Assembly (NCBI RefSeq): GCF_965363235.1
Contig: NC_134846.1
Span: forward strand, 93,614,571-93,678,570
DNA length: 64,000 bases
Source: Mytilus galloprovincialis
Lineage: Eukaryota > Mollusca > Bivalvia > Mytilida > Mytilidae
Direction: 5' to 3'
Shown here: positions 13,701 through 34,564 of the stretch, piece by piece
How the letters are laid out: each line of letters begins with the position of its first letter
Numbering within the stretch: the first letter of the stretch is position 1
Made by a program: the position numbers and the translations under genes
Notes under the pieces: model-generated
The model's input: only the letters and a program-made list of their open reading frames with translations
Database searches by the model: none
Told to the model about the DNA's origin: nothing

Positions 13701-16700
13701 AATTTCGTTCATACATACTCAGTCTAAAATCAAATCTCTCATTGTGAGGTTTCTGATTGCTAAGATATTTTGAAAAATATCAAACTTCAGATAATTGCAA
13801 TGAAAATTGAATTTAGTTTTCTGTCTTGTAGTTTAATTACAACAATGTGATTATAAAAATAAGAAGATGTGGTATGATTACCAATGAGACAACTCTCTAC
13901 CAGACACCAAATGACAGAAGTTTACAACTATAGTTCACTGTATGGCCTTCAACAATTAGCAGAAACCATAGCACATAGTCAGTTATAAAAGGCCCAAAAA
14001 GTGACCAATGTAAAACAATTCAAACCAATATAAACTACTAAATTACAGGCTCCTGACTTAAGATAGACACATATACAGGATGTGTTGTTATTTTTTTGTT
14101 TTTTGTTTGTTTTTTTTTGGGGGGGGTAAGCATTTTTCCTGGAATGCATACAGTACTTGCAACCTTAGGCGTTACTATTTCAGCGATCAATCAGCGGTCA
14201 TCGATCAGTCACCGATCAGTCAAGTTCGCGTCAAACTCACGTCAGCAATCCGTCAGACTTATAGTAAAAGTAATTGACTGATCGGACTGATCGGACGGAT
14301 AGTACCGATAGACCTTAATGACGGATTGAACTTTAATACGTCACATGATGAACTAATACAAATTACGGAATCTTAGTTTCGTTTAATTTAACTAAAATGG
14401 CGACTCATGAAAATCGAACGTTCAATGATACATTTTGTTTATTAATTATTTAGCAAAGTTTTATGAATTTAAATGAAAAGAAATGTACAGATAAAAGCTA
14501 AATTAAAATATCATCATTAAATAATAATTGTCTTTTTCGTTTTATTAAGGTTAATTATTTTCAAACCCGGCGAGTGTCTACATCGCGAAATTGATTTTAT
14601 TATTTTCCACACATACTCGGGAAAAACAAAATGAAAGGATCAGTTATTGAAAAATGTAGTCTATTTTTTTCAATATCTTAAATTTTTGTATCCTTATCAT
14701 CATAAAATTCTTTAAAAAAAGTCATAATCATGGACTTTCTATATTCTCGTCACAATCGAAGCCTTTGAAATAACAAATTACAAAAATAACTACTCCTAAA
14801 CAATAAAAAGTACAAAAATCTAATTCTTATTAGCAGACTTGTCTCAAGATGGTAAAAATAACTGATTTCAAATAAAATAGTATCATTTTCAATAAAAAGA
14901 AGAATAATTTAGCTTATTTTAAACGATGCGAATAATATTTTAGTATGATTTCTCTGACATTCTTTTAATTTTATGAAAAAAAACTATTCTAAACTATAAA
15001 AAGTACAAAAATTTAATGGCGGTCAATAATTTTCAGTAAAATGAAGAAGTATTTGCATTTTAGGCAACACGTACAAAAATTTACGGTCTCACTAATTAGC
15101 GACAACAAGAATTTTAGCGACAACAAGCGTCAACAAGCGACAAGAAGCGACAACAAGAATTATTTTAGCGACAACAAGCGACAAGAAACTATTTAGCGAC
15201 AAGAACACATTTTTTTTAATTAAAATTAATTATTGTAATAAATATTAAAAGAATATGCAAAAGAAAATAATTTTAGCGACAAGAAAGTTAAAATTGATAG
15301 AAAAAAATGAAACATTATTTCCATAATATTTTATTAAATTAATGACAATCTTGAGTTTTCAACAGGTGTTCACTATTTACAATGATTGTATATTCTGGCG
15401 CGTGTAATTGTATAGTCTGACGCGTGTACAAAGTTGAAGGTGTTAATTGGATGTTATTGTAGCAATAAAACAGGGGACACACAACTCGTTAAGCAAATGA
15501 ATCAAAATATTATATTCCATTATGCCCGCTCCATATATATCTCCATTCGTTTATTCATACTTTGACTTTGATGAAAACAGATACATACATTATCTTATAC
15601 ATATTCTTCATATTTAAAAATAATAAAAAAAGAAGCCCAATCTCTTTCTTCTTCACAAATGTTAAATTTCTTCATCTACCAATATACTAATATAAACTTC
15701 GCAATCTCTTTCTTCCTCACAAATGTTTCCTTTCTTTGTCTATCTATATCATAAAACATTTTAATTAGACATATCTGCTCGTATATTTAAAAAAAAAACA
15801 TTAAATACAAATTTCTTTCTATCTAATAAAAAAAAAATGTTTTCTTGTCGCTAAATAGTCTTCTTGTCGCTTGTTGTCGCTTGTTGACGCTTGTTGTCGC
15901 TTCTTGACGCTTGTTGTCGCTAATTAGTGAGACCCAAAATTTAGTATCTTTTTCCTTAAAGTAAGCATATTTTATGAAGAACAGCCAATCTTGATGTACA
16001 AAAAGTACTCAAATCATATCACGGTAAATAATTTGTATCAAAATAAATCAATAACTGCATTCTTATTCCACAAAAATAAAAGTTTAAGTATTTTGATTCT
16101 CATTATATCTCAATTCTGATTAGAAGACTTGTCTCAAGATGGTAAAAATAACTGATTTCAAATAAAATAGTATCATTTTTGATAAAAAGAAGAATAGTTT
16201 TGGTTATTTTATACAATGAGAACAAAATTTTAGTATGATTTTTCTGATATTCTTTTAATTTTATGAAAAAAAAAACTATTCTAAACTATAAAAAGTACAA
16301 AAATTTAATGGCAGTCAATAATTTTCAGTAAAATTAAGAAATATTTGCATTTTAGGCAATGCGTACAAAAATTTAGTATCTTTTTCCTTAAAGTAAGCAT
16401 ATTTTATGAAGAACAGCCAATCTTGATGTTCAAAAAGTACTCAAATCATATCACGGTTAATAATTTGTATCAAAATAAAAAAATAACTGCATTTTTATTC
16501 CACAAAAATAAAAGTTTAAGTATTTTAATTCTCATTATATCTCAATTCTGATTAGAAGACTTGTCTCAAGATGGTAAAAATAACTGATTTCAAATAAAAT
16601 AGTATCATTTTTGATAAAAAGAATAATTATTTTGGTTATTTTATACAATGCGAACAAAATTTTAGTATGATTTTTCTGATATTCTATTAATTTTATGAAA

Positions 16701-19700
16701 AAAAAACTATTCTAAACTATAAAAAGTACAAAAATTTAATGGTGGTCATTAATTTTCAGTAAAATGAAGAAATATTTGCATTTTAGGCAACGCGTACAAA
16801 AATTCAGTATCTTTTTCCTTAAAGTAAGCATATTTTATGAAGAACAGCCAATCTTGATGTACAAAAAGTACTCAAATCATATCACGGTTAATAATTTGTA
16901 TCAAAATAAATCAATAACTGCATTCTTATTCCACAAAAATAAAAGTTTAAGTATTTTAATTTTCATTATATCTCAATTCTGATTAGAAGACTTGTCTCAA
17001 GATGGTAAAAATAACTGATTTCAAATAAAATAGTATCATTTTTGATAAAAAGAATAATAATTTTGGTTATTTTATACAATGCGAACCAAATTTTAGTATG
17101 AATTTTCTGATATTCTATTAATTTTATGAAAAAAAAACTATTCTAAACTATAAAAAGTACAAAAATTTAATGGCGGTCAATAATTTTCAGTAAAATGAAG
17201 AAATATTTGCATTTTAGGCAACGCGTACAAAAATTTAGTATCTTTTTCCTTAAAGTAAGCATATTTTATGAAGAACAGCCAATCTTGATGTACAAAAAGT
17301 ACTCAAATCATATGACGGTTAATAATTTGTATCAAAATAAATCAATAATTGCATTCTTATTCCACAAAAATAAAAGTTTAAGTATTTTGATTCTCATTAT
17401 ATCTCAATTCTGATTAGAAGACTTGTCTCAAGATGGTAAAAATAACTGATTTCAAATAAAATAGTATCATTTTTGATAAAAAGAATAATAATTTTGGTTA
17501 TTTTATACAATGCGAACAAAATTTTAGTATGATTTTTCTGATATTCTTTTAATTTTATGAAAAAAAACTATTCTAAACTATAAAAAGTACAAAAATTTAA
17601 TGGCGGTCAATAATTTTCAGTAAAATTAAGAAATATTTGCATTTTAGGCAACGCGTACAAAAATTTAGTATCTTTTTCCTTAAAGTAAGCATATTTTATG
17701 AAGAACAGCCAATCTTGATGTACAAAAAGTACTCAAATCATATGACGGTTAATAATTTGTATCAAAATAAATCAATAACTGCATTTTTATTCCACAAAAA
17801 TAAAAGTTTAAGTATTTTAATTCTCATTATATCTCAATTCTGATTAGAAGACTTGTCTCAAGATGGTAAAAATAACTGATTTCAAATAAAATAGTATCAT
17901 TTTTGATAAAAAGAATAATTATTTTGGTTATTTTATACAATGCGAACAAAATTTTAGTATGATTTTTCTGATATTCTATTAATTTTATGAAAAAAAAACT
18001 ATTCTAAACTATAAAAAGTACAAAAATTTAATGGCGGTCATTAATTTTCAGTAAAATGAAGAAATATTTGCATTTTAGGCAACGCGTACAAAAATTCAGT
18101 ATCTTTTTCCTTAAAGTAAGCATATTTTATGAAGAACAGCCAATCTTGATGTACAAAAAGTACTCAAATCATATCACGGTTAATAATTTGTATCAAAATA
18201 AATCAATAACTGCATTCTTATTCCACAAAAATAAAAGTTTAAGTATTTTAATTTTCATTATATCTCAATTCTGATTAGAAGACTTGTCTCAAGATGGTAA
18301 AAATAACTGATTTCAAATAAAATAGTATCATTTTTGATAAAAAGAATAATAATTTTGGTTATTTTATACAATGCGAACCAAATTTTAGTATGAATTTTCT
18401 GATATTCTATTAATTTTATGAAAAAAAAACTATTCTAAACTATAAAAAGTACAAAAATTTAATGGCGGTCAATAATTTTCAGTAAAATGAAGAAATATTT
18501 GCATTTTAGGCAACGCGTACAAAAATTTAGTATCTTTTTCCTTAAAGTAAGCATATTTTATGAAGAACAGCCAATCTTGATGTACAAAAAGTACTCAAAT
18601 CATATGACGGTTAATAATTTGTATCAAAATAAATCAATAATTGCATTCTTATTCCACAAAAATAAAAGTTTAAGTATTTTGATTCTCATTATATCTCAAT
18701 TCTGATTAGAAGACTTGTCTCAAGATGGTAAAAATAACTGATTTCAAATAAAATAGTATCATTTTTGATAAAAAGAATAATAATTTTGGTTATTTTATAC
18801 AATGCGAACAAAATTTTAGTATGATTTTTCTGATATTCTTTTAATTTTATGAAAAAAAACTATTCTAAACTATAAAAAGTACAAAAATTTAATGGCGGTC
18901 AATAATTTTCAGTAAAATTAAGAAATATTTGCATTTTAGGCAACGCGTACAAAAATTTAGTATCTTTTTCCTTAAAGTAAGCATATTTTATGAAGAACAG
19001 CCAATCTTGATGTACAAAAAGTACTCAAATCATATGACGGTTAATAATTTGTATCAAAATAAATCAATAACTGCATTCTTATTCCACAAAAATAAAAGTT
19101 TAAGTATTTTAATTTTCATTATATCTCAATTCTGATTAGAAGACTTGTCTCAAGATGGTAAAAATAACTGATTTCAAATAAAATAGTATCATTTTTGATA
19201 AAAAGAAGAATAGTTTTGGTTATTTTATACAATGAGAACAAAATTTTAGTATGATTTTTCTGATATTCTTTTAATTTTATGAAAAAAAAAACTATTCTAA
19301 ACTATAAAAAGTACAAAAATTTAATGGCAGTCAATAATTTTCAGTAAAATTAAGAAATATTTGCATTTTAGGCAACGCGTACAAAAATTTAGTATCTTTT
19401 TCCTTAAAGTAAGCATATTTTATGAAGAACAGCCAATCTTGATGTTCAAAAAGTACTCAAATCATATCACGGTTAATAATTTGTATCAAAATAAATCAAT
19501 AACTGCATTTTTATTCCACAAAAATAAAAGTTTAAGTATTTTAATTCTCATTATATCTCAATTCTGATTAGAAGACTTGTCTCAAGATGGTAAAAATAAC
19601 TGATTTCAAATAAAATAGTATCATTTTTGATAAAAAGAATAATTATTTTGGTTATTTTATACAATGCGAACAAAATTTTAGTATGATTTTTCTGATATTC

Positions 19701-22700
19701 TATTAATTTTATGAAAAAAAAACTATTCTAAACTATAAAAAGTACCAAAATTTAATGGCGGTCATTAATTTTCAGTAAAATGAAGAAATATTTGCATTTT
19801 AGGCAACGCGTACAAAAATTCAGTATCTTTTTCCTTAAAGTAAGCATATTTTATGAAGAACAGCCAATCTTGATGTACAAAAAGTACTCAAATCATATCA
19901 CGGTTAATAATTTGTATCAAAATAAATCAATAACTGCATTCTTATTCCACAAAAATAAAAGTTTAAGTATTTTGATTCTCATTATATCTCAATTCTGATT
20001 AGAAGACTTGTCTCAAGATGGTAAAAATAACTGATTTCAAATAAAATAGTATCATTTTTGATAAAAAGAATAATAATTTTGGTTATTTTATACAATGCGA
20101 ACCAAATTTTAGTATGAATTTTCTGATATTCTATTAATTTTATGAAAAAAAAACTATTCTAAACTATAAAAAGTACAAAAATTTAATGTGGTCAATAATT
20201 TTCAGTAAAATGAAGAAATATTTGCATTTTAGGCAACGCGTACAAAAATTTAGTATCTTTTTCCTTAAAGTAAGCATATTTTATGAAGAACAGCCAATCT
20301 TGATGTACAAAAAGTACTCAAATCATATGACGGTTAATAATTTGTATCAAAATAAATCAATAATTGCATTCTTATTCCACAAAAATAAAAGTTTAAGTAT
20401 TTTGATTCTCATTATATCTCAATTCTGATTAGAAGACTTGTCTCAAGATGGTAAAAATAACTGATTTCAAATAAAATAGTATCATTTTTGATAAAAAGAA
20501 TAATAATTTTGGTTATTTTATACAATGCGAACAAAATTTTAGTATGATTTTTCTGATATTCTTTTAATTTTATGAAAAAAAACTATTCTAAACTATAAAA
20601 AGTACAAAAATTTAATGGCGGTCAATAATTTTCAGTAAAATTAAGAAATATTTGCATTTTAGGCAACGCGTACAAAAATTTAGTATCTTTTTCCTTAAAG
20701 TAAGCATATTTTATGAAGAACAGCCAATCTTGATGTACAAAAAGTACTCAAATCATATGACGGTTAATAATTTGTATCAAAATAAATCAATAACTGCATT
20801 CTTATTCCACAAAAATAAAAGTTTAAGTATTTTAATTTTCATTATATCTCAATTCTGATTAGAAGACTTGTCTCAAGATGGTAAAAATAACTGATTTCAA
20901 ATAAAATAGTATCATTTTTGATAAAAAGAATAATAATTTTGGTTATTTTATACAATGCGAACAAAATTTTAGTATGATTTTTCTGATATTCTATTAATTT
21001 TATGAAAAAAAACCTATTCCAAACTATAAAAAGTACAAAAATTTAATGGCGGTCAATAATTTTCAGTAAAATGAAGAAATATTTGCATTTTAGGCAACGC
21101 GTACAAAAATTTAGTATCTTTTTACTTAAAGTAAGCATATTTTATGAAGAACAGCCAATCTTGATGTACAAAAAGTACTCAAATCATATGACGGTTAATA
21201 ATTTGTATCAAAATAAATCAATAACTGCATTCTTATTCCACAAAAATAAAAGTTTAAGTATTTTAATTTTCATTATATCTCAATTCTGATTAGAAGACTT
21301 GTCTCAAGATGGTAAAAATAACTGATTTCAAATAAAATAGTATCATTTTTGATAAAAAGAATAATAATCTTGGTTATTTTATACAATGCGAACCAAATTT
21401 TAGTATGAATTTTCTGATATTCTATTAATTTTATGAAAAAAAAACTATTCTAAACTATAAAAAGTACAAAAATTTAATGGCGGTCAATAATTTTCAGTAA
21501 AATGAAGAAATATTTGCATTTTAGGCAACGCGTACAAAAATTTAGTATCTTTTTCCTTAAAGTAAGCATATTTTATGAAGAACAGCCAATCTTGATGTAC
21601 AAAAAGTACTCAAATCATATGACGGTTAATAATTTGTATCAAAATAAATCAATAATTGCATTCTTATTCCACAAAAATAAAAGTTTAAGTATTTTGATTC
21701 TCATTATATCTCAATTCTGATTAGAAGACTTGTCTCAAGAGGGTAAAAATAACTGATTTCAAATAAAATAGTATCATTTTTGATAAAAAGAATAATAATT
21801 TTGGTTATTTTATACAATGCGAACAAAATTTTAGTATGATTTTTCTGATATTCTTTTAATTTTATGAAAAAAAACTATTCTAAACTATAAAAAGTACAAA
21901 AATTTAATGGCGGTCAATAATTTTCAGTAAAATGAAGAAATATTTGCATTTTAGGCAACGCGTACAAAAATTTAGTATCTTTTTCCTTAAAGTAAGCATA
22001 TTTTATGAAGAACAGCCAATCTTGATGTACAAAAAATACTCAAATCATATGACGGTTAATAATTTGTATCAAAATAAATCAATAACTGCATTCTTATTCC
22101 ACAAAAATAAAAGTTTAAGTATTTTAATTCTCATTATATCTCAATTCTGATTAGAAGACTTGTCTCAAGATGGTAAAAATAACTGATTTCAAATAAAATA
22201 GTATCATTTTTGATAAAAAGAATAATAATTTTGGTTATTTTATACAATGCGAACAAAATTTTAGTATGATTTTTCTGATATTCTTTTAATTTTATGAAAA
22301 AAAAAACTATTCTAAACTATAAAAAGTACAAAAATTTAATGGCGGTCAATAATTTTCAGTAAAATGAAGAAATATTTGCATTTTAGGCAACGCGTAAAAA
22401 AATTTAGTATCTTTTTCCTTTAAGTAAGCATATTTCATGAAGAACAGCTAATATAATCTTGATGTACAAAAAGTACTCAAATGATATGATGGTTAATAAT
22501 TTGTATCAAAATAAATCAATAACTGCATTCTTATTCCACAAAAATAAAAGTTTAAGTATTTTGATTCTCATCATATCTCAATTCTGATTAGAAGACTTGT
22601 CTCAAAATGGTAAAAATAACTGATTTCAAATAAAATAGTATCATTTTTGATAAAAAGAAGAACAATTTTGGTAATTCTAAACAATGCGAAAAATTTTTTA

Positions 22701-25700
22701 ATATTATTTCTTTTACATTCTTTTAATTTCACAAAAAAACAACCTATTCGAAACTATAAAAAGTTCAAAAATCCAATGGCGGTCACAAAAAAACAACCTA
22801 TTCGAAACTATAAAAAGTTCAAAAATCCAATGGCGGTCAATAATGACCATTTTCGTAGGAATAAGTTTATGTTAACAGAGTCATATAATACAATTATGTA
22901 TTGTATGTCTCTGATGTTAAATATATTTAATACAAAACTATTAATCAACACAAACAATTTAACGCTCTAAGCATATTATTCTGTTATACTATTTTCACTT
23001 TTTTATTGCAACCAATTTTATTACAAATTAACGTGTAAATTAAGGTGTCTTCGTAGAGGTCCGCGTTCATCGTTTGTAAACACTGTCGAGTTCGGTTTAC
23101 ATAAGAATTTTAAATATATACGTATCCGTCCGATCCGTGCATAAATTTAATTTACTGATCGATCGGTGACAGTTGTCAGGGTAACTCTCACATAGGTTAT
23201 TTGACTTATCTGACGGATCCTATGGGTCACCGATCACCGATCACTCATCGATCAGTCAAACATCCGTCACCGATCATTCACCGATCAGTCAAGTTCACGT
23301 CAAACAGTAACGCCTAAGGTTGCAAGTACTGTAGCTCTCCCCAATAATTCTTTGTACTTGTAATTTATTAGCAACAATGTTATAAACATTTGTACTGTAA
23401 TTTATTTACAACAATGTAATTATACATTTTTACATTTTTACTTGTGATTTATTAACAACAATCTAATTACACATTGTAGTTTATTTACAACATTGTAATT
23501 ATACATGTAATGTATCTACAACTATGTAATGATGTTATGGTGAAATAGAAAGATTTGAAATTGTCAAATATTTTTGGCTTGTAAACCTCTTAAAATGTAT
23601 CCTCCAATTTCATACAGCTTAGGTATTAGTATACTTAGCAGGCATGGATCATATAATAATATTATCTTGTATCTGTAGTTCCCAGTTTTATATTTACTTT
23701 TTTATTTGGTATCTATAGTTTCCTGTTTGATATTTACTTATTAATTATCTGGTATGTGTAGTTTCCTGTTATATATATACATGTTATTTTATATGCAGTT
23801 TCCTATCTTACTTGTAATTTTACTTTTGTAGTCTCCTGAAGGTCACTGACTGGGTTACTTCCCCTACTGATTATTTCCTCAACATTATCTTGTCCCCATG
23901 GAAACTGACACTGTATGAATGCTCTACTAGTATTTTCATTTAAAGTCTCCAACTCTGAACAGGAAATCTGTGCTGGATCACTAGCATACTAAAAATACTT
24001 TTTACTTTTAGAGCTAAATTCTTAATTCTTGTAGTTTAAAGGTTTGGTTGGCTTCAGCTTTAATATATACTATTCTCTACATTATACTTAACAATCAAAT
24101 AATATTTAAAAAAAAATTAAGTATACAAGATGAAGCCCTGCCTATCTGTTGATTGCAGATGTCAATCTTAATTACAATGCTTGAGAAAACATGTTTACAA
24201 ACAAAGCAAGAGTCAACCAAACCATTAAACTACAAGCAATAGGAAAATAGTTCCAGACAGTAAACATATTGGCATTAGTTACAAGGTGAGTTTCCTCTTT
24301 AAGCTCTTTAAGCATTTTGTTTCCTATCTTATAATTAAGTAAGTAGAACAAGCATTAAGGACTTGGTTTTCATGTAAACCAACAGAAGAAATTTCAAAAT
24401 ACTTGGTATTACAATCGTTCATGCTATTTAACGCTCTAAAGCTTAAAATTAGCTAGGTTGGTCCCCTCCGTAAAACATTTAGTATGCCTTCGGAATATAC
24501 AAATGTATTGTCAGGAATTTCAATAACGGCCGGGAAACAGACTAAAAATTAGCCTAACACAATCCCAATGAATCTGATGTGTTCTAGGCAATGCTTTAGA
24601 TTGAATACATGGTACAACAAACTATTGTGATTGTTATCAATGACATAAAGATATCCAACAAATAATCTGAAATAATGGCATTATTTACCTTTCTCCACCA
24701 CAGTAATCTCTGTTGAATCCACTGATCAAATGACTGTAGAGCTGAACTAGGGCTGCAGAAATACTGTAGAACAATGCTTGTCTGAACTGAGGAGCTACAA
24801 TAAAATAGACCAATCAAAAGACTGTAGAACTGAACTAGGGCTACAAAAGTACTGTAGAACTGAACTAGGGCTACAAAAGTACTGTAGAACAATGATTGTC
24901 TGAACTGAGGAGTTACAATAAAATAGACTAATCAAATGAGTGTACAGCTGAACTAGGGCTACAGAAATACTGTAGAACAATGCTTGTCTGAACAGTTGTC
25001 TGAACTGAGGAGCTACAAAAAAATAGACTAATCAAATTACTGTACAGCTGAACCTGGGCTACAAAATTACTGTAGAACAATGCTTGTCTGAACTGAGGAG
25101 TTACAATAAAATAGACAAATCAAATGACTGTAGAGCTGAACTAGGGCTACAAAAGTACTGTAGAACAATGCTTGTCTGAACTGAGGAGCTACAATAAAAT
25201 AGACCAATCAAAAGACTGTAGAACTGAACTAGGGCTACAAAAGTACTGTAGAACAATGCTTGTCTGAACTGAGGAGCTACAGTAAAATAAATTAATCAAA
25301 AGATTGTAGAACTGAACTAGGGCTACAGAAATACTGTAGAACAATGCTTGTCTGAACAGTTGTCTGAACTGAGGAGCTACAAAAAAATAGACTAATCAAA
25401 TGACTGTAGAGCTGAACTAGGGCTACAAAAGTACTGTAGAACAGTGCTTGTCTGAACTGAGGAGCTACAATAAAATAGACCAATCAAATGACTGTAGAGC
25501 TGAACTAGGGCTACAAAAGTACTGTAGAACAATGCTTGTCTGAACTGAGGAGCTACAATAAAATAGACCAATCAAAAGACTGTAGAACTGAACTAGGGCT
25601 ACAAAAGTACTGTAGAACAATGCTTGTCTGAACTGAGGAGCTACAGTAAAATAAATTAATCAAAAGACTGTAGAGCTGAACTAGGGCTACAGAAATACTG

Positions 25701-28700
25701 TAGAACAATGCGTGTCTGAACAGTTGTCTGAACTGAGGAGCTACAAAAAAATAGACTAATCAAATTACTGTACAGCTGAACCTGGGCTACAAAATTACTG
25801 TAGAAGAATGCTTGTCTGAACTGAGGACTTACAATAAAATAGACTAATCAAATGAGTGTACAGCTGAACTAGGGCTACAGAAATACTGTAGAACAATGCT
25901 TGTCTGAACAGTTGTCTGAACTGAGGAGCTACAAAAAAATAGACTTATCAAATTACTGTACAGCTGAACCTGGGCTACAAAATTACTGTAGAACAATGCT
26001 TGTCTGAACTGAGGAGTTACAATAAAATAGACAAATCAAATGAGTGTACAGCTGAACTAGGGCTACAAAAGTACTGTAGAACAATGCTTATCTGAAATGA
26101 GGAGCTACAATAAAAAAGACTAATCAAATAAGTGTACATCTGAACTAGGGCTACAAAAGTACTGTAGAACAATGCTTGTCTGAACTGAGGAGCTACAATA
26201 AAATAGTCTAATCAAATAAGTGTACATCTGAACTAGGGCTACAAAAGTACTGTAGAACAATGCTTGTCTGAACTGAGGAGCTACAATAAAATAGACTAAT
26301 CAAATAAGTGTACATCTGAACTAGGGCTACAAAAGTACTGTAGAACAATGCTTGTCTGAACTGAGGAGCTACAATGAAATAGACTAATCAAATTAGTGTA
26401 CACCTGAACTAGGGCTACAAAAGTACTGTAGAACAATGCTTGTCTGAACTGAGGAGCTACAATAAAATAGACTAATCAAATAAGTGTACATCTGACCTAG
26501 GGCTACAAAAGTACTGTAGAACAATGCTTGTCTGAACTGAGGAGCTACAATAAAATAGACCAATCAAATGACTGTAGAGCTGAACTAGGGCTACAAAAGT
26601 ACTGTAGAAGAATACTTATCTGAACTGAGGAGCTACAATAAAATAGACTGATCGGATGTAGGTAAAGCTGAACTAGGGCTACAAAAGTACTGTAGAACAA
26701 TACTTATCTAAACTGCAGACAGTTTGATAAAAAAAAATACTGGGCATAAACAAACTAATAGCTTTATAATTAGACTTATCAATTTTTATTTTACAATTTG
26801 TTCGAGTCAATCCTAAATGTATGCATTAGAAATCTACTAAGGTTTATATATTGATTATGTTTTTATCAATAAATCTTACATGAACATGGATATAAACAAT
26901 TTATAATTTCAAAGATGTTCACATAAACTTAAAAAAGTTCTTAGGATTTACTGATTGAATGTCAGTTTTTAGTTCCACATTCATCTCTATTGTCTACCAA
27001 TATATCAAGTAAGCCAGGTTTTATTGGTGGTGGAAGCTAGGGTACCAGGAGAGAACCCAACGTTCATATTATCATATATATATATATCAATAATACAGTT
27101 ATGAAATGTACATTTTCTGTTTATAAATTTTGAATGAATGAAAAACACTTATTTCTAGCCACAGGCAAAGATGGCCTAAGCCACATTTTGCAAAACATTC
27201 AAAATTTATTGTTAACAATGCTCTTAATTTTTCATTTGTCCTTGCAATTGATTTGATTTGAGTGTCACTGAAGAGTTTTGTGTAGACAAAACATGCAACA
27301 GGTAAATAGATATAGGAAGATCTGGTGGAGTACCAATGAGACAACTCTCCATCCAAATAACAATTTAAAAAAAGTAAAACATACTATAAGCCAGATGAAC
27401 TTTTTAGTCCTTGCTTAAGTTTCTTGTTAGTCCCTTGAGTATAGTATTCAATTTTCAAAATCTAATTAAACACTTACTCAAATAAAAACGTATCTTCATA
27501 TTGTGTTGCTAGAGACTCAGGGAAAGTCTGTCCTCTTTGTACTATAGCAAAAGGTAAAGTGTAGTTGACTAGTTGTAGTATATCTGGTAAATGCTTTAAT
27601 GTACCTGTTGAATAGAGTAAACTCATGTTTATATGGTTGAATTTTAAGATGCTGTCATTTATATTTCAAGCAGACATCAACAGATGCAAAATAAAATAAT
27701 GTCCCACATGAAATAGTGTCAACAATAATGTGCACAGACAATTATCATAATGAAATACTGACAAGGACAATATTTCTTGATGAAATAGTGTACTTCTCTA
27801 GGAAATTTTGTAAGAGAGGACAATATTTCACTATTAATTTTTGTTGAGGACAGTACTTCACTGTTAACGTCTGTTCAGGACAATATTTCGATGTTAATTT
27901 CTGTTGAGGACAATATTTCACTGTTAATTATTGTTGTGCACAATATTTCACTGTTAATTTCTGTTGAGGACAGTATTTCAATGTTAATTTCTGTAAATGA
28001 CAATATTTCACTGTGAAATACTATCCATGACAATACAATCAAGTATGTCTTCCCTGAAAAATTACAAGCCATGAAATTGTGAGTGTTTCTGAAATCTTTG
28101 GAATATTGTTCTTAAAAAGAATGTGTATAGCTGTAACATGCTGCATCAAATAGTTCTCATTTAAATTGTGGAGCAAATAGTTCTCATTTAAAGTGTGCAG
28201 CATGCACATTTTTATATTTATAGTTAAAATAATTTTATTAAGCAAGTGTATGATTACTGAGCTACTTCTCATATGAACTCATTATTGACTATAATCAAAA
28301 ACTGAATTGACTGTCAGACAATGCTTTTCCTCTTACTCTTTTACTCTATGATGGAATAAAGACTTCTAAATATGGATATATGTTTTTGAAGTTCTATGTG
28401 ACATCCATTTTCATTGAACTAGTACACATTTGGTTGAAGGGCCAGCTGAAGACCATCTCCAGGTGCATGATTTTCTCACTGTGTTGAAGACCCATTAGTG
28501 GCGTTCATCTGTTTTCTGCTCTTTGGTTGGGTTGTTTATTTTTTTTTACACATTCCCCATTTTAATTCTCAATTTTATTTTCATTATAATTAATCAAAGA
28601 ACAGATTTCAAATATTTATATTTATTCAAATAACAATAAATAAAAGTGTTGTTAAGAAAATTCAGATAACATGAACAATACCAAAAACATGTTTAACTTC

Positions 28701-31700
28701 TCTTTTGTTTTTTTTGCCCCATAAACCTATATTTGTACCAAATCAGTCGTCTATTTAAGATAAAATAAGTTCTTATGTACCTTGAGATAGATTACTTCTA
28801 AGTTGCTTTGGTTCATCTCTGTAATAAAATAATAATTTTTGTAAGTAAAATGTAGCAATGAAGAAAAGTCAGGTAAAAGTCAGGTAAAAGTCAAGTAAAA
28901 GTCAGGTAAAAGTCAGATAAAAGTCAGGTAAAAGTCAAGTAAAAGTCGGGTAAAAGTCAGGTAAAAGTCAGGTAAAAGTCAGATAAAAGTCAGGTAAAAG
29001 TCAGGTGACAGTCAGGTAAAAGTCAGATAAAAGTCAGGTAAAAGTCAGATAAAAGTCAGGTAAAAGTCAGGTAAAAGTCAGATAAAAGTCAGGTAAAAGT
29101 CAGGTAAAAGTCAGATAAAAGTCAGGTAAAAGTCAGGTAAAAGTCAAGTAAAAGTCAGGTAAAAGTCAGGTAAAAGTCAGATAAAATTCAGGTAAAAGTC
29201 AGGTAAAAGTCAGATAAAAGTCAGGTAAAAGTCAGGTAAAAGTCAGATAAAAGTCAGGTTAAAGTCAGGTAAAAGTCAAGTAAAAGTCAGATAAAAGTCA
29301 GGTAAAAGTCAGGTAAAAGTCGAGTAAAAGTAAATCACACATACCATTTTCTATAACATTTATAAAATTCCATAATGAGTAACCATGACTTTAAATAAAC
29401 CAGTTAACCTGAAACTGCTTTGTAATTTAGTCTATTTTAGAACTTTAACATTGCATATGTACAGTTTCAATATGATTTATACAGTACCACCACAAATTTT
29501 TGATAGTAATACTTTTTTCACACCAGTTGTGTAATAACTAATCAGCAAGGCAATTCATATGGCAACTACTTTTTATACACCTTGAATGCTATGTACTCCA
29601 ATTACACACCTTAAAGTATAGTCAACAATACAACTACAATACTGGTATATAAGTAATGTACCAATATTGTTGTTTTTAAAAAAAAAGTTACAATACTGGT
29701 ACAAAATTTTTATACCAGAATGGCGATCACCAACTACAGGAGATCCCAGGGATGAGCTGAGAGAGGGAAAGGTTTGAAAAGTGAACGTTCAAACTTAACA
29801 TAGTTTATGAAGCAAATTTTTATAAGACAAATCAAAGTCATTAAAATGATTTGTTGGATGTGTTTAAGATGTTATGTCTCTATGCACAATACATTGTTTG
29901 GACCCAGATGGCTTCAACTGGTTTGAAAAAGTAAATTTTAGAACTTATCCGGATTGAAAAAAATAGCAAAAAGGTTTATTCAAATATCTTTATTGTTTTT
30001 ATCCTGATGACAGTGCCCTAGGCACCGAAACATGTCGATCAATAAATTTCTGCAGCAGTCCCTAAAGTGTTGTTGTTATAAGACTCTCTACATTTTAAGT
30101 TTTTTATCATAACAACCCTGCATACCCCCTGGTATCCACTTTATGGACTCTACCGTACTACAGACTCACCAGGCGTTGGTTCACTTTCGTTTGTAATTGA
30201 AATATTTTTTTAGTGTAAGAGATAAAAAGTTAGAGGTATTTTGTTATTTCTTATACAATATTTAAGATACTTAAAAAAACTTTCATAAAAGGTTATACAA
30301 CTTTACAATTGTTCCATACACTAAATAATTTAATTAACCTATTTTTATAATATCTAAGAAAAAGACTGAACAGTTGGGCCGGACACACTATACTAAGCTT
30401 GAAACTGTTTTGGATTGTTATCAAATTTTTGACATAATATAGGTTTTTGACACAAAACAAATGTCAATCTTACAAATAAATTTCACAATACTGTGCAATT
30501 AAAGATTTCTTCTTGAAATTTTATAAAAATTTGAAAAATTTTGAAAAAGAAATTGAACCCCTTAAAAAAATTGGAACCCCTCTAAACTTTTTGAATCCCC
30601 CCTTGGAGCAATATTACTCCAACACTCGATCCCTGCCTTTCCTTTGTAGTATGGAACCTTGTAGTACAATTTCAGAGAGATCCATACACTTAAACACAAG
30701 TTATCTAGAAACTAGATAGATGCTTGTTTGCCCTTTTTTTGGCCCCTAATTCCTGCATGAATGAGGTAATAACCCCCAAACTCAATTCCAGCCTTCTTTT
30801 TGTGATATGGGACCTAGCCTTGTGGTACAATGTCAGATAGATCCATACTCCTACATACAAGTTATCGTCCAGAAACTGCAAAAATGCTTGTTTTTGGCCC
30901 TTAACATGCCTTAGGGCATACGATACAGTTTTCATCCCATATTTACATTTTGATAAAAATTTCCATATTATATAGACTATTTTTTACCAGATTAAATCAA
31001 ATATGTAATAAAAAATATACCTTCATGTGCTATTTTTTTAATATTAAAAATGAGGTTGAAATTTCGTATATTTGCTCTAAATTCGGATTTGTGGCCATAT
31101 TTTCCCTTTTGAAAGAAAGTCATAACATTAAAAAAAGAGGGGTCCATGAACTCGTTTTCAAGATAAATCAGTTTGAATGATAAAAATCAGTCGAAAACTG
31201 AATCTCTTCCCGATAGGTCATAGTTTGACGTTGCGAAAATAACAATTTACTTTCGCAACGTCATTACCTCCCCTGTAACTGTATCGTATGCCCTTAAGCA
31301 GGCTCGTGAGTACAAAAAAATCAGCAAATATTTATGAATTATATTTTTCATTACAAATTTTATTTATTGTACTATTAGTTGTTACTTTATAACATGGTAC
31401 AAAAATAAACCCAAAAAAATCAATTTGTTTTGGCCCCAGATGCTTTTTAAATGTTTATATCATTGAAAAAGCTCCAAATTATCTCCCTTTGGTGAAAAAA
31501 ATGCAATTTTTTTGCATTAAAATTAAAATATTTTTTTTTATTCATTGGTGACCTTAATTTTTATTATTTTTTTCAAATAAGCTGTACTTAAACTAAAATA
31601 TTGTAAAATTCAAGCGATTTCTGTAATTTAGTTCTTTTTTTATTTCGATATTACTTTTTTTCTCCTATTAGTTCAACAGAAAAAAATTACCTAAACAAAA

Positions 31701-34564
31701 ATGCATGTTTCTTTTGAAGGCAGATCTTGAGCTTAAATGAACGGTGACCCCATATTATAATTTTATTTTTCTATTAGGTATAGGATAAAGTTTATTTATA
31801 AAAAAATTAGCAAACTCCTATATTAGAAAAAAAATTGATTTATACCCGCGAGCCCCCTTAATTCCTAATGTTGGCACCATAAACCCCAAAATGAATCCAA
31901 ATCTTCTACTTGTGATATTAGACATTAATACAATTTCAGAGCAATTAAAAAACACAAGTTATTATCCTGAAAGTAGAAAAATGCATAATTTGGGCCCCTT
32001 TTGGGCCCCTAATTTCGAAACGGTTGGGACAATCATCCCCAAAATCAATCTTTGTGGTATTGAACCTTCTTATAAAATTTCAAAGAGATCCATTCATGTA
32101 AACTAAAGTTAATGTCTGGAAATCAATGTGACTTAGGACGATGACGACATCATACCATTTTACGATCCCAAACGTTTGTTTGCGGGCGTATAAAAACTTA
32201 ACATTGTCCAATGAACCATGGAAATGAGGTCAAGGTCAAATGAAACTTCCAAATGGACATGTACACCTTTAAATTATTCCATACACCAAATAGAGTGGCT
32301 CTAATGTTTGTAGTACATGTATGTGAGAAAATCACAAACAAACAAAACATTGTCCTATGAATCATGAAATGTTAGATGAAACCTGCCTTAGCTTGTACTA
32401 ATTAAAGTATAGACCACATAACTTCAAACTTGATCACTGATTTATTCAATGAGGTCAAGGTCATGTGGACCCTACCAGATGGATATATATGTAAATCTTG
32501 CAAGGAAATCATTCATCAAATATATTTATTCTATTACTCATAATAAGTATTTCCCTTAACAAATTTTTTTTTTTTTTCAAGCAGTCACTGACCCATGAAT
32601 GTGAGGTCAAGAACAATGGAAACATGAAAGACTGAATCTTTGTAACATGAGGTCTCTGTATATAAATTATGAATCATCAGATGCTGGATTGCATGGTTTA
32701 AGCTAGGATTTTGAAGGCTTTAGTCACTTTTGCGTGAGGTATTGCATGTAAAAACCAACATTAAGAAAAAAAACTGAAATATACAACTACAACAAAGAAA
32801 GTTATTATGAAGGTTTTCTGTGAATGAAGCAAACAATAAATGTACTAACGTGTTCCTGAAGACGGAGTTCTCTACAGGATAAGTATCTATCTGTGAAGTG
32901 ACTAGACTGTCCCATCTGAAATATAGTCAAATTATGATGAGGTATGTTAGCAGAAAAGACGCACAAAGAAGCTAGACAGCTGTATACATTGTAGTAATAA
33001 ACACTACAAAAATCGTTAAAAAAGAAGCTAGACAGCTATATACACTACAAATATCTTTGAACTCTGACTTCTCTTAAACTGAGTTTAATGTGCGTATTGT
33101 TGTGGGTTTGTTTTTTCTACATTGACTAGAGTTAGACATGATAGAGGGAGGGTTGAGATCTAAAAAAATGTTTAACCCTGCGCAATTTTGGGCCTGTCTC
33201 AAGTCAGGAGCCTCTGGCCTTTGTTAGTCTTGTATGATTTTTAATTTTAGTTTCTTGTGTATAATTCGGAGTTTAGTATGACGTCCATTATCACTGAACT
33301 AGTATACATATTTGTTCAGCATGTTTAGCAGTCAAGGGTCTAACTTAAATAAGTTATCAGGGGAAAATAACATGCATGTGTTATTACAGAAACTTTCATG
33401 AGTTGTCTACTCTTTTTTCCTTAATCTGTAATAACATATGTTTGTTATCAGTTAAATATATTTTATCTTTAAAGGGCACTTGGAAATTCTTAAAACTTTG
33501 CGCAGTAGCTTAATATATTACCTTGATAACTAATTTTCTAATTCCATTAATACAATTTTGATCAACCATGGTAAATCAATGAGACAAGGCATTTAAGGGC
33601 AAACTAAGTTGTAATAACCAGGCTTAGTTATTACAAGCATGTAACTAACTATATGAGAGTAAATGAGACACTTGGAATCTTGTGCAGTACCTCATTACAA
33701 GCTCTGATCATCATTTCTTGCAATGAATTGAAATAAATTGTTATGCATGTCAGGGCAAAGCCTCTATAAAGAGATATAGAGAAGCTGTAATAACACCCTT
33801 TGGTTATTGCAGGAATATATTTCCTGTAATGAGTCATTGACATAGGTGTACTATATATATAGATGCATGATTGGTAAACTATGAGCTGGTATATCTTTGC
33901 AAAGATTAGTATATATACATAAAGAAAATTATAATATCAATAGAACTTGAGAAAAATTTAACAAAACAAAGGTTGTTGATTTTCCCTTTGAAACATGTAA
34001 CATACATATGTTATCACCATGATCACAGTTTTTTGATAATTTAGAGCACAATAACAACATGTATGCAATTTTCTCTAATAACTTATTTAAGTTAGACCTT
34101 TGACTGTTTAGGGGCCAGCTGAAGTACGCCTCTGGGTGTGGGAGTTTCTCGATACATTGAAGACCCATTGGTGGCCTTCTGCTGTTGTCTGTTCTATGGT
34201 TGGGATGTTGTCGCTTTGAAACATTTCCCATTTCCATTCTCAATTTTATTGTTCCAGATATTAGGACACCTCCACAGCCTAAAGTCATGAATGTAAATTT
34301 ATAACAGATGAAGTAATACTTTTAAACAATAATTGGTTGAGATTTCTAGATGATATTAAGACTCCTGCTGGACCAAATGTATTAAACTAATTAAGATTAA
34401 GTAATACTTAACAATAATTGGTTGAGATTTCTAGATGTTAAGACTCCTGCTGGACCAAACGTATAGCTACTAAACTTTCCTCTATTTCTATTTCTCTTTA
34501 CAAATGATGATTTATGTAACAAGCTGATTATTTTCTCCATCTGTGCCAAGCTAGCTTTTGCCAT
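1675..34564 (-). CDS. POLG2: DNA polymerase gamma accessory subunit, mitochondrial (whole gene, 10 exons)
   Basis: POLG2 is the processivity subunit of the mitochondrial replicative polymerase; it binds the catalytic subunit and strengthens DNA binding. It has a class II aminoacyl-tRNA-synthetase-like fold with an anticodon-binding-like C-terminal domain and no synthetase activity. The ten minus-strand exons listed separately join in frame at every junction to give 377 residues. Landmarks along the chain match the family: FGPAGV (residues ~36-41), LPDILQLVNYTLPF (~90-103), WIQQRLLWWRK (153-163), QFPWGQ (~191-196), LHPKIAPYKLSIV (272-284), GTIELRNKDTTLK (347-359), and a short tail EKIHLTQLKEIILKNIDF. 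All introns have GT/AG ends. The human protein is 485 residues; the difference is a shorter N-terminus and a missing ~39-residue dimerisation segment. The ATG at 34564-34562 is the first in the first recognisable exon, but that exon starts with a good 3' splice site, so an upstream exon, possibly encoding the mitochondrial presequence, probably exists and was not found. Confidence 0.93.
1732..2730. other. POLG2 intron 9, 3' part
   Basis: AT-rich intron sequence. A minus-strand open frame at 2156-1869 has no recognisable domain and is probably chance. A short run of CATGCCTGATGACGTCACAT-like direct repeats (three, about 33 bp apart) lies at 2600-2690. Confidence 0.6.
2731..3796 (-). mobile_element. 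Internally deleted hAT-family DNA transposon
   Basis: The ends are perfect inverted repeats: CAGTGGCGGATCCAG at 2731-2745 and CTGGATCCGCCACTG at 3782-3796. Flanking 8-mers (GTCGTCTA and GTCTATAA) agree only partly as a target duplication. Between the ends a minus-strand frame encodes a fragment of the hAT transposase C-terminal dimerisation region. The element lies in POLG2 intron 9 and reads on the same strand as the gene. Confidence 0.85.
3040..3381 (-). pseudogene. hAT transposase C-terminal dimerisation domain, remnant
   Basis: An open frame of 113 codons. The recognisable part is ILKIIAAMGVTSCECERSNS followed by ELSLLKTYLRTTLGQ and LNGLALMHVHYS. This is the typical hAT C-terminal pattern (V.SCECERSFS.L..IK..LR..M...RL..LA.L.I.), as in ZMYM-like and KIAA-type hAT proteins. 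The first 25 or so residues look like read-through of non-coding DNA. The zinc finger and the rest of the catalytic domain are missing, so the product cannot be an active transposase. Confidence 0.85.
3836..4917. mobile_element. TTAA-ended inverted-repeat element with nested retroposon
   Basis: The right end reads ACTGTATCGTATGTGCCCTTAA (4896-4917) and the left part matches the element at 30907-31297, which has both ends: AGGGCATACGATACAGTT and AACTGTATCGTATGCCCTTAA. The interior ATGTAATAAAAAATATACC and CTTCATGTGCTA are shared between the copies. The left end of this copy is eroded (ACAATACAGTTTTGATCCCA). It is interrupted by the retroposon at 4158-4585. The coding-like frame at 4461-4685 spans this junction and is not a gene. 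Confidence 0.65.
4145..4598 (-). mobile_element. Retroposon (SINE- or LINE-tail-like) with 13 bp target duplications
   Basis: The 428 bp insert is bounded by direct copies of AACTCATATTTAT at 4145-4157 and 4586-4598. Read on the minus strand it ends in a short ATCAATCAATC tail after GGACGTTAAGCAACCAAC, as expected for a non-LTR retroposon 3' end. No reading frame is conserved. The clean target duplications show insertion into the older TTAA element. Confidence 0.8.
5040..5136 (-). CDS. POLG2: POLG2 exon 9
   Basis: The 3' splice site TTTTTTATTAG (minus) starts the exon and the 5' splice site AAAG|GTAAAC ends it. It encodes 32 whole codons, NDMMGLPYTAILSEG then TLDSGTIELRNKDTTLK, matching the family segment YDEMSILFTVLV...LIHLRSRDTTMK. 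This is part of the anticodon-binding-like C-terminal domain. The leading base completes the Arg codon begun in exon 8. Confidence 0.95.
5137..9245. other. POLG2 intron 8 with assorted repeats
   Basis: Contents seen: an AGTA/AAGT-rich tail with TTTTATTTATAGTCGGGCATGG (about 5468-5535), probably the end of a retroposon; a TTAAGGGCATACGATACAG end at 5668 that belongs to the TTAA-ended family, whose partner end is not obvious; a mytilid dispersed repeat on the minus strand at 7172-7400 and a short piece at 8205-8290; a stray ACTGTATCGTATTCCCTTAA end at 8633-8652; and the 284 bp element at 8722-9005. The segment 8430-8600 repeats CGCGAAA-containing phrases. No coding exon was seen. Confidence 0.6.
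8722..9005. mobile_element. 284 bp inverted-repeat element (MITE-like)
   Basis: It starts GGGAGCTACCATTTGATTTT and ends with its reverse complement, AAAATCAAATGGTAGCTCCC; the similarity extends about 45 bp inward (TATGGGGG..CTAGGATGAAA). Flanking 8-mers AAAGCAAA (8714-8721) and TAAGCAAA (9006-9013) agree at 7 of 8 bases, suggesting an 8 bp target duplication. The interior is six or seven degenerate units of poly(A) followed by GGCAGGACA-like words. Confidence 0.8.
9246..9421 (-). CDS. POLG2: POLG2 exon 8
   Basis: The 3' splice site TTCTTCTCTCAG precedes the exon and the 5' splice site ATAAG|GTATGT ends it. It encodes KLNLHPKIAPYKLSIV, then SRSNEIQEVASYLNKDLRNA and GIDVFHAKDSLSVEDQFI plus two bases of Arg. 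It corresponds to the start of the anticodon-binding-like domain (family KLHPCLAPIKVAL...[20 protein letters not shown]). Confidence 0.97.
10419..10806 (+). mobile_element. Dispersed element with GTCAAATCGGCACCT repeats, copy A
   Basis: It opens with several GTCAA(A/G)TCGGCACCTGGTTAAAT-like words and continues through CAATTCGGCTTCCAATAATA, ACTATGAGTCCCTTTCAATA and AACAGCATTAAACAAACAAT to ATGCATAAAAAATA-like sequence. The same order of landmarks occurs in reverse complement at 57285-58035; the GGCACCT words also occur at 54243-54345. No coding capacity is visible. Confidence 0.7.
10817..10872. repeat. Near-perfect hairpin with a third arm
   Basis: TTTTTCTGGGACGCCTTCCTA and TAGGAAGGCGTCCCAGAAAAA flank a 9 base loop (AGACGTTCG). 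A third, diverged arm (ATAGGAAGGTGTCCCAGAAT) follows at about 10892-10911. Short outer words AAGGCTAT and ATAGCCTT extend the symmetry. Confidence 0.85.
11110..11235. repeat. Imperfect inverted repeat with inner palindrome
   Basis: GTGTAAAAGCGTTGACCG on the left pairs with CGGTCAACGCTTTTGCA on the right, around an inner palindrome GAAGCGCATAAGCGCTTC. It is MITE-like. No clear target duplication was found. Confidence 0.7.
12185..12912. mobile_element. Inverted-repeat element with GTTCGCGCCC-type ends
   Basis: The left arm (about 12195-12280) contains TTTGCGCCC, TTCGCACC, GTTCACACCC and TTCGCGCCCAATT. The right arm (about 12838-12912) contains the complementary words GGGTGTGAAAGTG, GGGGGCGAACATG, GTGCAAACGTG and TGGGCGCGAACGGA. 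The interior holds three or more degenerate copies of ACCAAAACATGATTAAGA..TTATTCAAC about 115 bp apart. The ends are not sharp enough to define a target duplication. Confidence 0.65.
13480..13617 (-). CDS. POLG2: POLG2 exon 7
   Basis: The 3' splice site TTTTCTTTCAG and 5' splice site CTGAG|GTATAG bound 46 whole codons. The product CANGNKSYTPHLIECSTVLE followed by HCLMACLCDAY and a Thr/Ser-rich stretch matches the family segment [28 protein letters not shown]. Phase 0 at both ends agrees with exons 6 and 8. Confidence 0.93.
13855..14075 (-). repeat. Mytilid dispersed repeat
   Basis: Contains GATGTGGTATGATTACCAAT, GAGACAACTCTC, AATGGCCTTC-like and CAGGCTCCTGACTTA segments shared with the long copy at 1090-1462, in reverse orientation. 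It sits just outside the 9.2 kb TA-flanked element. Confidence 0.8.
14830..22640 (+). repeat. 431 bp satellite array, ~16-17 units with higher-order pattern
   Basis: Units repeat every ~431 bp (for example the word ATTTGCATTTTAGGCAACGCG at about 16777, 17208, 17638, 18069, 18500, 18930). Most units look more than 95% identical by eye. Variant positions (CATATCACGG/CATATGACGG, AATAACTGC/AATAATTGC, CATTTTTGATAAAAAGAAG/AATAAT) recur every three units (1292 bp), and a longer pattern returns when the AAGAAGAATAGTTTTGG unit at 16180 reappears at 19200. The first unit is more diverged and is split by the element at 15084-15935. Each unit contains a 68-72 codon open frame, which I do not regard as a gene. 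Confidence 0.95.
15084..15935. mobile_element. 852 bp inverted-repeat element nested in the satellite
   Basis: The ends are GGTCTCACTAATTAGCGACA at the left and the complementary TGTCGCTAATTAGTGAGACC at the right. Both are followed inward by repeats of GCGACAACAAG (right: CTTGTTGTCGC). Direct copies of AAAATTTA lie at 15076-15083 and 15936-15943. Sister satellite units read ACAAAAATTTAGTATC without the insert, so the 8 bp target duplication and the empty site are directly seen. The interior has no coding frame. Confidence 0.93.
22735..22842. repeat. 54 bp tandem duplication at the satellite edge
   Basis: Two copies of a segment containing AACCTATTCGAAACTATAAA, AAGTTCAAAAATCCAATGGC and GGTCA. 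This is the last, diverged piece of the 431 bp unit, repeated twice before unique AT-rich DNA. Confidence 0.85.
23334..23811. other. POLG2 intron 6, 5' part
   Basis: Low-complexity AT-rich sequence with loosely repeated phrases (TTTACAACAATGTAATTATACA and GTATCTATAGTTTCCTGTT, two to four times each). No gene was seen. Confidence 0.6.
23812..23988 (-). CDS. POLG2: POLG2 exon 6
   Basis: The 3' splice site TTTTTAG and 5' splice site TTACAA|GTAAGA bound 59 whole codons. The key segment RAFIQCQFPWGQDNVEEII aligns with family NKLYYNFPWGKELIETL; FPWG is characteristic of POLG2. I chose the donor after LQ rather than an upstream AAA|GTAAAA because it gives the family's spacing to exon 7. Confidence 0.93.
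23989..24688. other. POLG2 intron 5
   Basis: About 700 bp of AT-rich intron sequence with no element or exon that I recognise. Confidence 0.6.
24689..24794 (-). CDS. POLG2: POLG2 exon 5, partly inside a minisatellite
   Basis: The 3' splice site TTTTATTGTAG and 5' splice site GAAAG|GTAAAT bound one base plus 35 codons: SSVQTSIVLQYFCSPSSALQ then SFDQWIQQRLLWWRK. The leading base completes Asp from exon 4. The protein matches family TEASLVWFTPPRTSNQW...HRLQWWRK with identical spacing from the first Leu to WWRK. The last 33 bases are unique; the first ~70 bases, with the splice site, form the terminal unit of the array at 24722-26735. A shorter exon starting at the CAG before TGG (24721) is possible but would break the phase with exon 4. 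Confidence 0.85.
24722..26735 (-). repeat. POLG2 exon-derived minisatellite, ~22 units of ~88 bp
   Basis: I count 22 occurrences of the TCTGAACTGAGG word or a variant, spaced 88 bp, or 101 bp where CAGTTGTCTGAA is inserted. Read on the minus strand each unit has GATTAGTCTATTTTATTGTAG (intron and AG acceptor), then coding sequence for SSVQTSIVLQYFCSPSS and LQSFD. It lacks the unique end with WWRK and the 5' splice site. Only the unit at the low-coordinate edge is joined to those. The array therefore fills the downstream end of POLG2 intron 4 with acceptor-bearing partial exons. Confidence 0.93.
26736..27477. other. POLG2 intron 4, 5' part
   Basis: AT-rich intron DNA. A short mytilid repeat piece (GATATAGGAAGATCTGGTGG to GACAACTCTCCATCCAAAT) lies at 27308-27362. 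The minus-strand open frame at 27356-27099 overlaps that repeat and shows no domain. Confidence 0.6.
27478..27604 (-). CDS. POLG2: POLG2 exon 4
   Basis: The 3' splice site TATTCAACAG and 5' splice site TTGA|GTAAGT bound 127 bases. The product reads (G)TLKHLPDILQLVNYTLPF then AIVQRGQTFPESLATQYEDT and FLF. It matches family [28 protein letters not shown]. The first two bases complete the Gly codon begun in exon 3, and the last two pair with the first base of exon 5. Confidence 0.95.
27605..28780. other. POLG2 intron 3
   Basis: Holds a ~30 bp tandem repeat (TGTTGAGGACAATATTTCACTGTTAATTTC, about 27760-28030, six or seven diverged units). At about 28435-28575 there is a dispersed repeat with GGGCCAGCTGAAGACC and TTGAAGACCCATTAGTGGC; a second copy lies at 34110-34260. 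No exon was seen. Confidence 0.7.
28781..28818 (-). CDS. POLG2: POLG2 exon 3 (38 base microexon)
   Basis: The 3' splice site TTTTATTACAG and 5' splice site CTCAAG|GTACAT bound 38 bases encoding DEPKQLRSNLSQ between split codons (Thr from exon 2, Gly into exon 4). It matches family SGKLRENLLHG. The exon is small, but its phases fit both neighbours exactly. Confidence 0.87.
28858..29335. repeat. 11 bp minisatellite, ~43 units
   Basis: Tandem copies of AAAGTCAGGTA, with AAAGTCAGATA, AAAGTCAAGTA and rare other variants. GGTA and GATA types alternate in a partly regular pattern, pointing to longer amplification units. It lies in POLG2 intron 2, 40 bp upstream of the 38 base exon 3. Confidence 0.97.
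30903..31299. mobile_element. TTAA-ended inverted-repeat element, intact copy
   Basis: The left end AGGGCATACGATACAGTTTT (30911-) and right end AACTGTATCGTATGCCCTTAA (to about 31297) are inverted copies over ~18 bp. The interior shares ATGTAATAAAAAATATACCT and CATTACCTCCCCTGTAACTG with the copy at 3836-4917. The right end carries TTAA outside the repeat; the left has CTTA, so a TTAA target site is plausible but not shown. Confidence 0.7.
32195..32665 (-). repeat. GACCTCATTTTCATGG-family repeat, reverse copies
   Basis: Contains CATGGAAATGAGGTCAAGGTC, CAATGAGGTCAAGGTCATGT and TGAATGTGAGGTCAAGAACA about 200 bp apart. These are diverged units of the family at 1-1078, in reverse orientation. Confidence 0.75.
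32850..32915 (-). CDS. POLG2: POLG2 exon 2
   Basis: The 3' splice site CTATATTTCAG and 5' splice site GAACAC|GTTAGT bound 66 bases. The product WDSLVTSQIDTYPVENSVFRN matches family WWTSVVVFREQVFPVD. The first base completes Leu from exon 1 and the last two bases begin the Thr codon finished by exon 3. In vertebrates about 39 more residues follow here. Confidence 0.92.
33324..34111. mobile_element. CAGTCA-ended element, copy 1 (778 bp)
   Basis: The left end is CAGTCAAGGGTCTAACTTAA (33329-) and the right end TTAAGTTAGACCTTTGACTG (to 34106), inverted with one mismatch. Both are flanked by TTTAG (33324-33328 and 34107-34111), a 5 bp target duplication. Just inside each end is a palindrome of type ACTTAAATAAGT. 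The element interrupts a GGCCAGCTGAAG-type dispersed repeat, whose halves continue on either side. The interior has no conserved coding frame. Confidence 0.85.
34326..34380 (-). repeat. Tandem duplicate of the 3' end of POLG2 exon 1
   Basis: The minus strand encodes TFGPAGVL, then I-S-SRNLNQLL. This is the same as the end of exon 1 (34472-34413) except for an in-frame three-base addition. The candidate 5' splice site is TATT|GTTTAA against TATT|GTTAAG in the real exon. It lies ~85 bp downstream of the original within intron 1. Confidence 0.85.

Follow-up and report, generated by a model that had tools for sequence, protein, structure and literature searches.

POLG2 and the array ahead of its fifth exon

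The window analysed here, a stretch of 64,000 nucleotides of Mytilus galloprovincialis DNA on contig NC_134846.1 (positions 93,614,571-93,678,570), carries on its minus strand a gene of ten coding exons with matching phases (34564 to 1675) that full-length homology identifies as POLG2, and the intron between exons 4 and 5 of this gene holds a tandem array whose units resemble the end of that intron together with the beginning of exon 5. The identification rests on a 370-residue model, used in these comparisons without seven residues at the start of exon 6 (YASDPAQ), which is 97% identical to the M. edulis protein P0003 across the full length of the latter. It also matches PDB chains that bear the names Pol gamma B or DNA polymerase subunit gamma-2, among them 3ikl_A with E 1.8e-38 and 5c53_B with E 4.3e-81, the latter a match over two fused copies. 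The C-terminal anticodon-binding domain PF03129 was found by a scan of M. coruscus P0001 and is a precomputed entry for M. edulis P0003. A further relative, P0005 (67% identity), comes from a contig of 1447 nt, which is probably a transcript because it is too short for introns like these. No paper on Mytilus POLG2 was found in our literature search.

The tandem array is real. When exon 5 with 60-nt flanks is compared with the rest of the window, 21 further same-strand matches are obtained between 24851 and 26715, at 82-98% identity and with E values from 3e-60 to 4e-15. Cut at the acceptor, the array comprises 20 full units upstream of exon 5, with a single decayed one at its 5' edge; an earlier note on this DNA had thus been right about the array itself, while its count of about 22 units has to be replaced. 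The 88-bp period given there applies to 15 of the 20 full units, but the period is not uniform: a 12-bp insert brings four units to 100 nt, and a 30-bp insert brings one to 118 nt. Each of the three lengths leaves a remainder of 1 on division by 3.

The segment common to exon and array consists of the 12 nt at the end of the intron and coding nucleotides 1-70 of exon 5 (70/106 nt, 66%), which agrees with the earlier description of the last unit as the first two thirds of the exon. Similarity stops at TTTGAT, before the unique 36 nt of exon 5 and its donor GTAAAT, and the units do, as had been proposed, lack both. The motif TGTAGCCC, in which a second TAG stands slightly beyond the acceptor, occurs 22 times in 24689-26735. 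All 23 matches to the array unit in the 1.38-Gb assembly lie at the POLG2 locus, and no match elsewhere, of the kind expected of a dispersed or mobile satellite, was found in these counts, which are lower bounds. Coordinates are collected in Table 1.

Table 1. Features of POLG2 and of the exon-5 array, in window positions (a slash marks the splice boundary)
Feature	Position	Strand	Basis or remark
POLG2 first coding exon	34413..34564	-	phase-consistent gene model; 3' edge duplicated once in intron
POLG2 exon 4	27478..27604	-	phase-consistent gene model
POLG2 exon 5, 106 nt	24689..24794	-	acceptor TCTATTTTATTGTAG/CTCC, donor AAAG/GTAAAT; phase fits exons 4 and 6; gap-free orthologue match
POLG2 exon 6	23812..23988	-	begins TATGCTAGTGAT, encodes YASDPAQ as in M. 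edulis P0003
POLG2 last coding exon, including stop codon	1675..1731	-	end tandemly duplicated at 1550-1625
Exon-5 part common to array units (coding nt 1-70)	24725..24794	-	unit comparison
Array in intron between exons 4 and 5	24795..26732	-	20 full units, one decayed 5' unit, last 12 intron bases with real acceptor
Decayed 5'-most unit, without aligned AG acceptor	26645..26732	-	unit comparison
Unit 10, AG changed to give ATT/GTAAGT, consensus-like donor	25827..25840	-	unit comparison
Potential 84-nt in-frame cassette, unit 17 decoy acceptor and unit 18 GTAACT	25105..25188	-	peptide exact in M. edulis P0004
Second potential open 84-nt cassette, unit 7 acceptor and unit 8 GTAACT	26021..26104	-	open, in frame

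Origin and turnover of the array

Whether the exon or the array came first may be judged from the protein. The peptide of exons 4 and 5 aligns with the POLG2 chain of 5c53, which we take to be the human structure, over 78 of 78 residues with zero gaps; the alignment with 1g5h, presumably the mouse structure, requires two one-residue gaps. In M. edulis P0003 the stretch DSSVQTSIVLQYFCSPSSALQSFDQWIQQRLLWWRK is joined straight to exon 4, as is the corresponding stretch DSSIQTSIVLQYFCTPGSTLQSFDQW in P0005, and the exon-5 stretch has the same length in two named oysters, one oyster-like protein and a unionid. Nine of the 43 listed proteins (P0001 and P0003-P0010) entered the orthologue alignment; the 34 left out (P0011-P0044) are each listed with the synthetase domain PF00587. 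Since the exon-5 peptide stands in the POLG2 register and the orthologues agree in its length, the exon is old and served as the source of the array. This supports the claim of the earlier note that a conserved coding exon seeded the array, and not the reverse, and the comparison of exon 5 with orthologous POLG2 that had been called for there returned orthologues that do resemble the unit (P0003, P0005, the oysters and the unionid).

An in-frame start of exon 5 at a stronger-looking acceptor 42 nt downstream, TTTCTGCAG/CCC, was also considered and rejected, as it lowers the POLG2 scores (5c51_B, 31.6 bits for the accepted start vs 18.1 for the later one; 1g5h_A, 33.2 vs 22.1) and conflicts with P0003 and P0005.

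Several points weigh against a simple reading. Three public gene models depart from it: P0001 and P0004 each take in a unit of the array, and P0006 lacks exon 4; the unit taken as coding sequence in P0001 and P0004 may be a gene-finder error or a real isoform. Use of the last acceptor in M. galloprovincialis is, moreover, suggested by protein models that come from other mussels, of which M. edulis P0003 fits regular splicing and P0001 and P0004 include a unit. As a separate observation, in M. edulis P0006 exon 4 is skipped and repeats have seemingly been read as coding, both before exon 5 and at the C-terminus, and mussel gene models that cross arrays therefore call for care.

Turnover within the array appears in comparisons over 82 nt with the inserts trimmed. 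Exon 5 differs from its nearest units, at 25200 and 25564, by three synonymous third-position changes (TAT/TAC, TTC/TTT and TGC/TGT), and only a single site sets it apart from all 20 units. Identical units are found four apart (25652/25288 and 25564/25200) and ten apart (26028/25112 and 25940/25024), some units one apart are identical too, and Tandem Repeats Finder (TRF) reports a 364-bp super-unit in the array.

An extra unit is built into two gene models of other mussels, M. edulis P0004 and M. coruscus P0001, the latter having a unit-like stretch ahead of exon 5. Both exon and unit of P0001 read SPGS, P0005 reads TPGS, and the window and M. edulis read SPSS; at the same codon place the window units encode PS in 16 of 20 cases, PG in three (units 8, 10 and 18) and PR in one. 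The unionid has S at this position and the oysters differ there. If G was ancestral in mytilids, the array would be older than the change from G to S, and the exon and most units would have been homogenised together since. That the array predates this change is suggested by few sequences, and separate origins are also possible.

Decoy acceptors, donor-like sites and the explanations weighed

The typical unit is a near-complete 3' splice-site module made of a branch-point-like TTTGAT, a T-rich tract, an AG and exon sequence, without the donor of the exon. The earlier note had placed an acceptor in every unit, making 21 decoys; this has to be given up, as AG is kept in 16 of the 20 full upstream units and replaced by GTAA in the other four. 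The real 15-nt tract is present in seven of the 16 AG units, and in four of the 16 the agreement with the real site is complete over 30 nt (24 nt of intron and 6 nt of exon), which means that local signal cannot separate those four from it. Read in the phase of exon 4, all 16 AG decoys reach a stop codon 61-85 nt past the acceptor, and stops are also found in the four GTAA units and in the decayed unit. With a stop after every AG decoy, the reading frame would be truncated whatever the distance of the decoy, making a decoy a poison site and not merely a source of the frame shift that had been put forward, which is not the main consequence of its use.

In the four GTAA units the acceptor site has become donor-like, reading ATT/GTAACT in units 8, 18 and 20 and ATT/GTAAGT in unit 10. 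Each of these units, taken with the acceptor of the unit preceding it, delimits a potential exon of 84 or 96 nt, and all four are in phase; two are open and two contain a stop codon. One of the open cassettes encodes SSVQTSIVLQYFCSPSSALQSFDLSILF, which is the exact 28-residue insert of the M. edulis model P0004. The stops after all 16 AG decoys, the gained donor-like sites and the amphioxus precedent discussed below had all been overlooked in the earlier note.

We consider it very probable that the array is a "mirage", i.e., a minisatellite grown from an intron-exon boundary, that its last copy is still the one used, and that it is probably near-neutral baggage. It would have begun with a tandem duplication that took in the end of intron 4 and 70 nt at the start of POLG2 exon 5, and this would then have been multiplied within the intron to the roughly 20 units seen, most likely by unequal exchange. 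The last copy is most likely still the one spliced, through exon definition, because it alone has a real donor at exon distance and the unique end of the exon downstream. A transcript spliced to an upstream decoy runs into a stop within 61-85 nt and would become a target of nonsense-mediated decay. Selection for correct splicing would then restrain an array that is otherwise probably near-neutral, and the exon would at times be homogenised with it.

The array may instead act as a splicing regulator, in which decoys compete with the real acceptor and draw part of the POLG2 pre-mRNA into products that contain a stop, so that array length would tune the level of POLG2. The AG kept in 16 of 20 units, the four sites identical to the real one over 30 nt and the stop reached within 85 nt of all 16 are what such a regulator would show, but recent homogenisation would retain acceptors without selection as well, and the AG has been lost in four of the 20 units. 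Amphioxus arrays of this kind are also reported not to disturb splicing (see below), and one search for decoy-terminated POLG2 proteins, in a library of predicted proteins and not of reads, returned only P0002, an exon-4 homologue that continues into other sequence, and thus no decoy-terminated product. We therefore regard regulation as very improbable.

As another explanation, the array may supply in-frame cassettes, the GTAACT or GTAAGT units acting as donors and the preceding unit becoming an 84-nt exon that adds 28 residues to POLG2. Of the four adjacent pairs, two would allow this, being open, in frame and matched in phase, and one of the two gives the exact P0004 insert. P0004 is, however, one database gene model, its insert is absent from M. 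edulis P0003, from the aligned oyster and unionid orthologues and from the solved POLG2 chains shown, and the other two pairs carry a stop, all of which makes this very unlikely as an explanation of the array. That new POLG2 exons do arise from the array, and that some mussels express an isoform with 28 duplicated residues as in the P0004 model, we likewise judge unlikely on the sequences compared.

Tandem arrays are hard to assemble and the copy number here comes from the assembly, not from reads, yet an assembly artefact, with the array erroneous or its copy number wrong, is highly improbable given the structured differences among units and the extra unit in the M. edulis and M. coruscus gene models. 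That an unrelated intronic satellite overran exon 5 and replaced its start, the coding match being secondary, is hardly credible even in array-rich mussel DNA (17 arrays in 200 kb sampled), since the exon-5 peptide is homologous and of equal length in solved vertebrate POLG2, oysters, the unionid and mussels, the orthologous proteins share the exon-5 start (compared as proteins only) and the unit was not found elsewhere in the assembly, in counts that are lower bounds.

Other repeats in the window and mirages elsewhere

Duplication affects two further edges of POLG2 exons. In the first coding exon it is the 3' edge with its donor, of which one more copy stands in the intron (34306-34382; score 114, reached in none of 1000 shuffles); the sequence of M. 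edulis P0003 (VLTSRNL) is consistent with the first copy being used. The end of the last exon with the stop codon, and the bases that follow, are tandemly duplicated at 1550-1697 (72-bp period, 2.1 copies, E 2.6e-28). With these two edges (exon 1 and exon 10, one further copy each), exon-edge arrays may be common in this mussel genome. A 43-bp array after exon 6 was tried as copies of the exon-6 edge and rejected, as 154 of 1000 shuffles reach its score; no link was found between a 30-bp array before exon 4 and that exon (403 of 500 shuffles), nor between an 11-bp array before exon 3 and exon 3 (494 of 500 shuffles).

Arrays with a period of at least 30 and at least three copies number 12 in the 64-kb window, over 18,213 bases, and 17 in 20 stretches taken at even spacing along the contig, over 11,855 of 200,000 bases, four of the latter having at least ten copies. 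Among the repeats of the window are an 11-bp unit, rich in T on the gene strand and repeated about 42 times just upstream of exon 3 (28864-29331); a 6.9-kb array of 431-bp units with 97% matches within the 10-kb intron that separates exon 6 from exon 7 (15936-22785); arrays of about 195/390 bp at 38376-40895 and 49108-52709, some 8 kb apart, whose units look reverse-complementary by eye; and 36 degenerate, telomere-like TAACCC copies at 47598-47813, about 1 Mb from the end of the 94.7-Mb contig. In the last POLG2 intron, a minus-strand fragment (3040-3393) matches the dimerisation domain of hAT transposases (PF05699, E 2.6e-8).

Splice sites within minisatellite units have precedents. The human IFI6/6-16 minisatellite, said to have been described by Cuin and Porter in 1995, reportedly carries multiple splice donor sites that are used in transcripts; the sites repeated there are donors and those in the mussel are acceptors.

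The closest likeness is with the amphioxus globin gene BflGb6, where, in the available portion of the report (PMC3087553), the 3' end of an intron and the 5' part of the next exon are tandemly repeated in six and three units on two haplotypes and RT-PCR (reverse transcription PCR) suggests regular splicing. Both arrays are minisatellite-like copies of an intron end and an exon beginning in which many, but not all, units have splice signals, and the homogenised clusters with excluded boundaries described in that portion for BflGb6 may be counted as a further likeness (PMC3087553). The mussel units span the intron-exon boundary of their host gene POLG2, 16 of 20 keep the AG, and a homogenised interior (identical units one, four and ten apart) is set against a diverged edge, the decayed 5'-most unit. 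In contrast with the chordate array of 150-160 bp units in six and three copies, the mussel array has 20 full copies of 88-118 bp, a super-repeat and donor-like mutations, going by what is accessible of that report (PMC3087553).

The amphioxus genes Adh3, TnC and PGBD5 have mirages as well, with repeats over splice sites, splicing reportedly undisturbed and, in Adh3, an unstable array length; the units are of 10-72 bp in Adh3 and of 60 and 108 bp in PGBD5, and the genes and boundaries are others than here (PMC3087553 and PMC3902484, as far as their accessible parts go). Human paralogues have variable minisatellites at their exon-intron boundaries as well, through which cryptic splice sites may be activated and new introns formed, but these repeats average four units of 30 bp, lie in segmental duplications and are often retained within exons (PMC2812944, accessible part). 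An earthworm gene has an intronic minisatellite and duplications of exon 4 that are absent from transcripts, the accessible part of the report not stating whether they span a splice site (PMC12783039).

In the open-licence literature, no exon-edge arrays from molluscs or bivalves and no comparable decoy-acceptor arrays were found, and the name "mirage" for splice-site arrays was met in lancelet reports only. As far as these searches reach, the mussel array would therefore be a large mirage in a new phylum, with a role in regulation or exon birth being possible.

With some 20 similar 3' splice sites placed before one working exon, the array amounts to a natural experiment on acceptor choice without local information. 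It extends mirages to a mollusc and to a mitochondrial replication gene, and these mussel lineages are known for the unusual inheritance of their mitochondrial DNA. Through its donor-like units, it also shows a possible mutation route from a mirage towards new in-frame exons.

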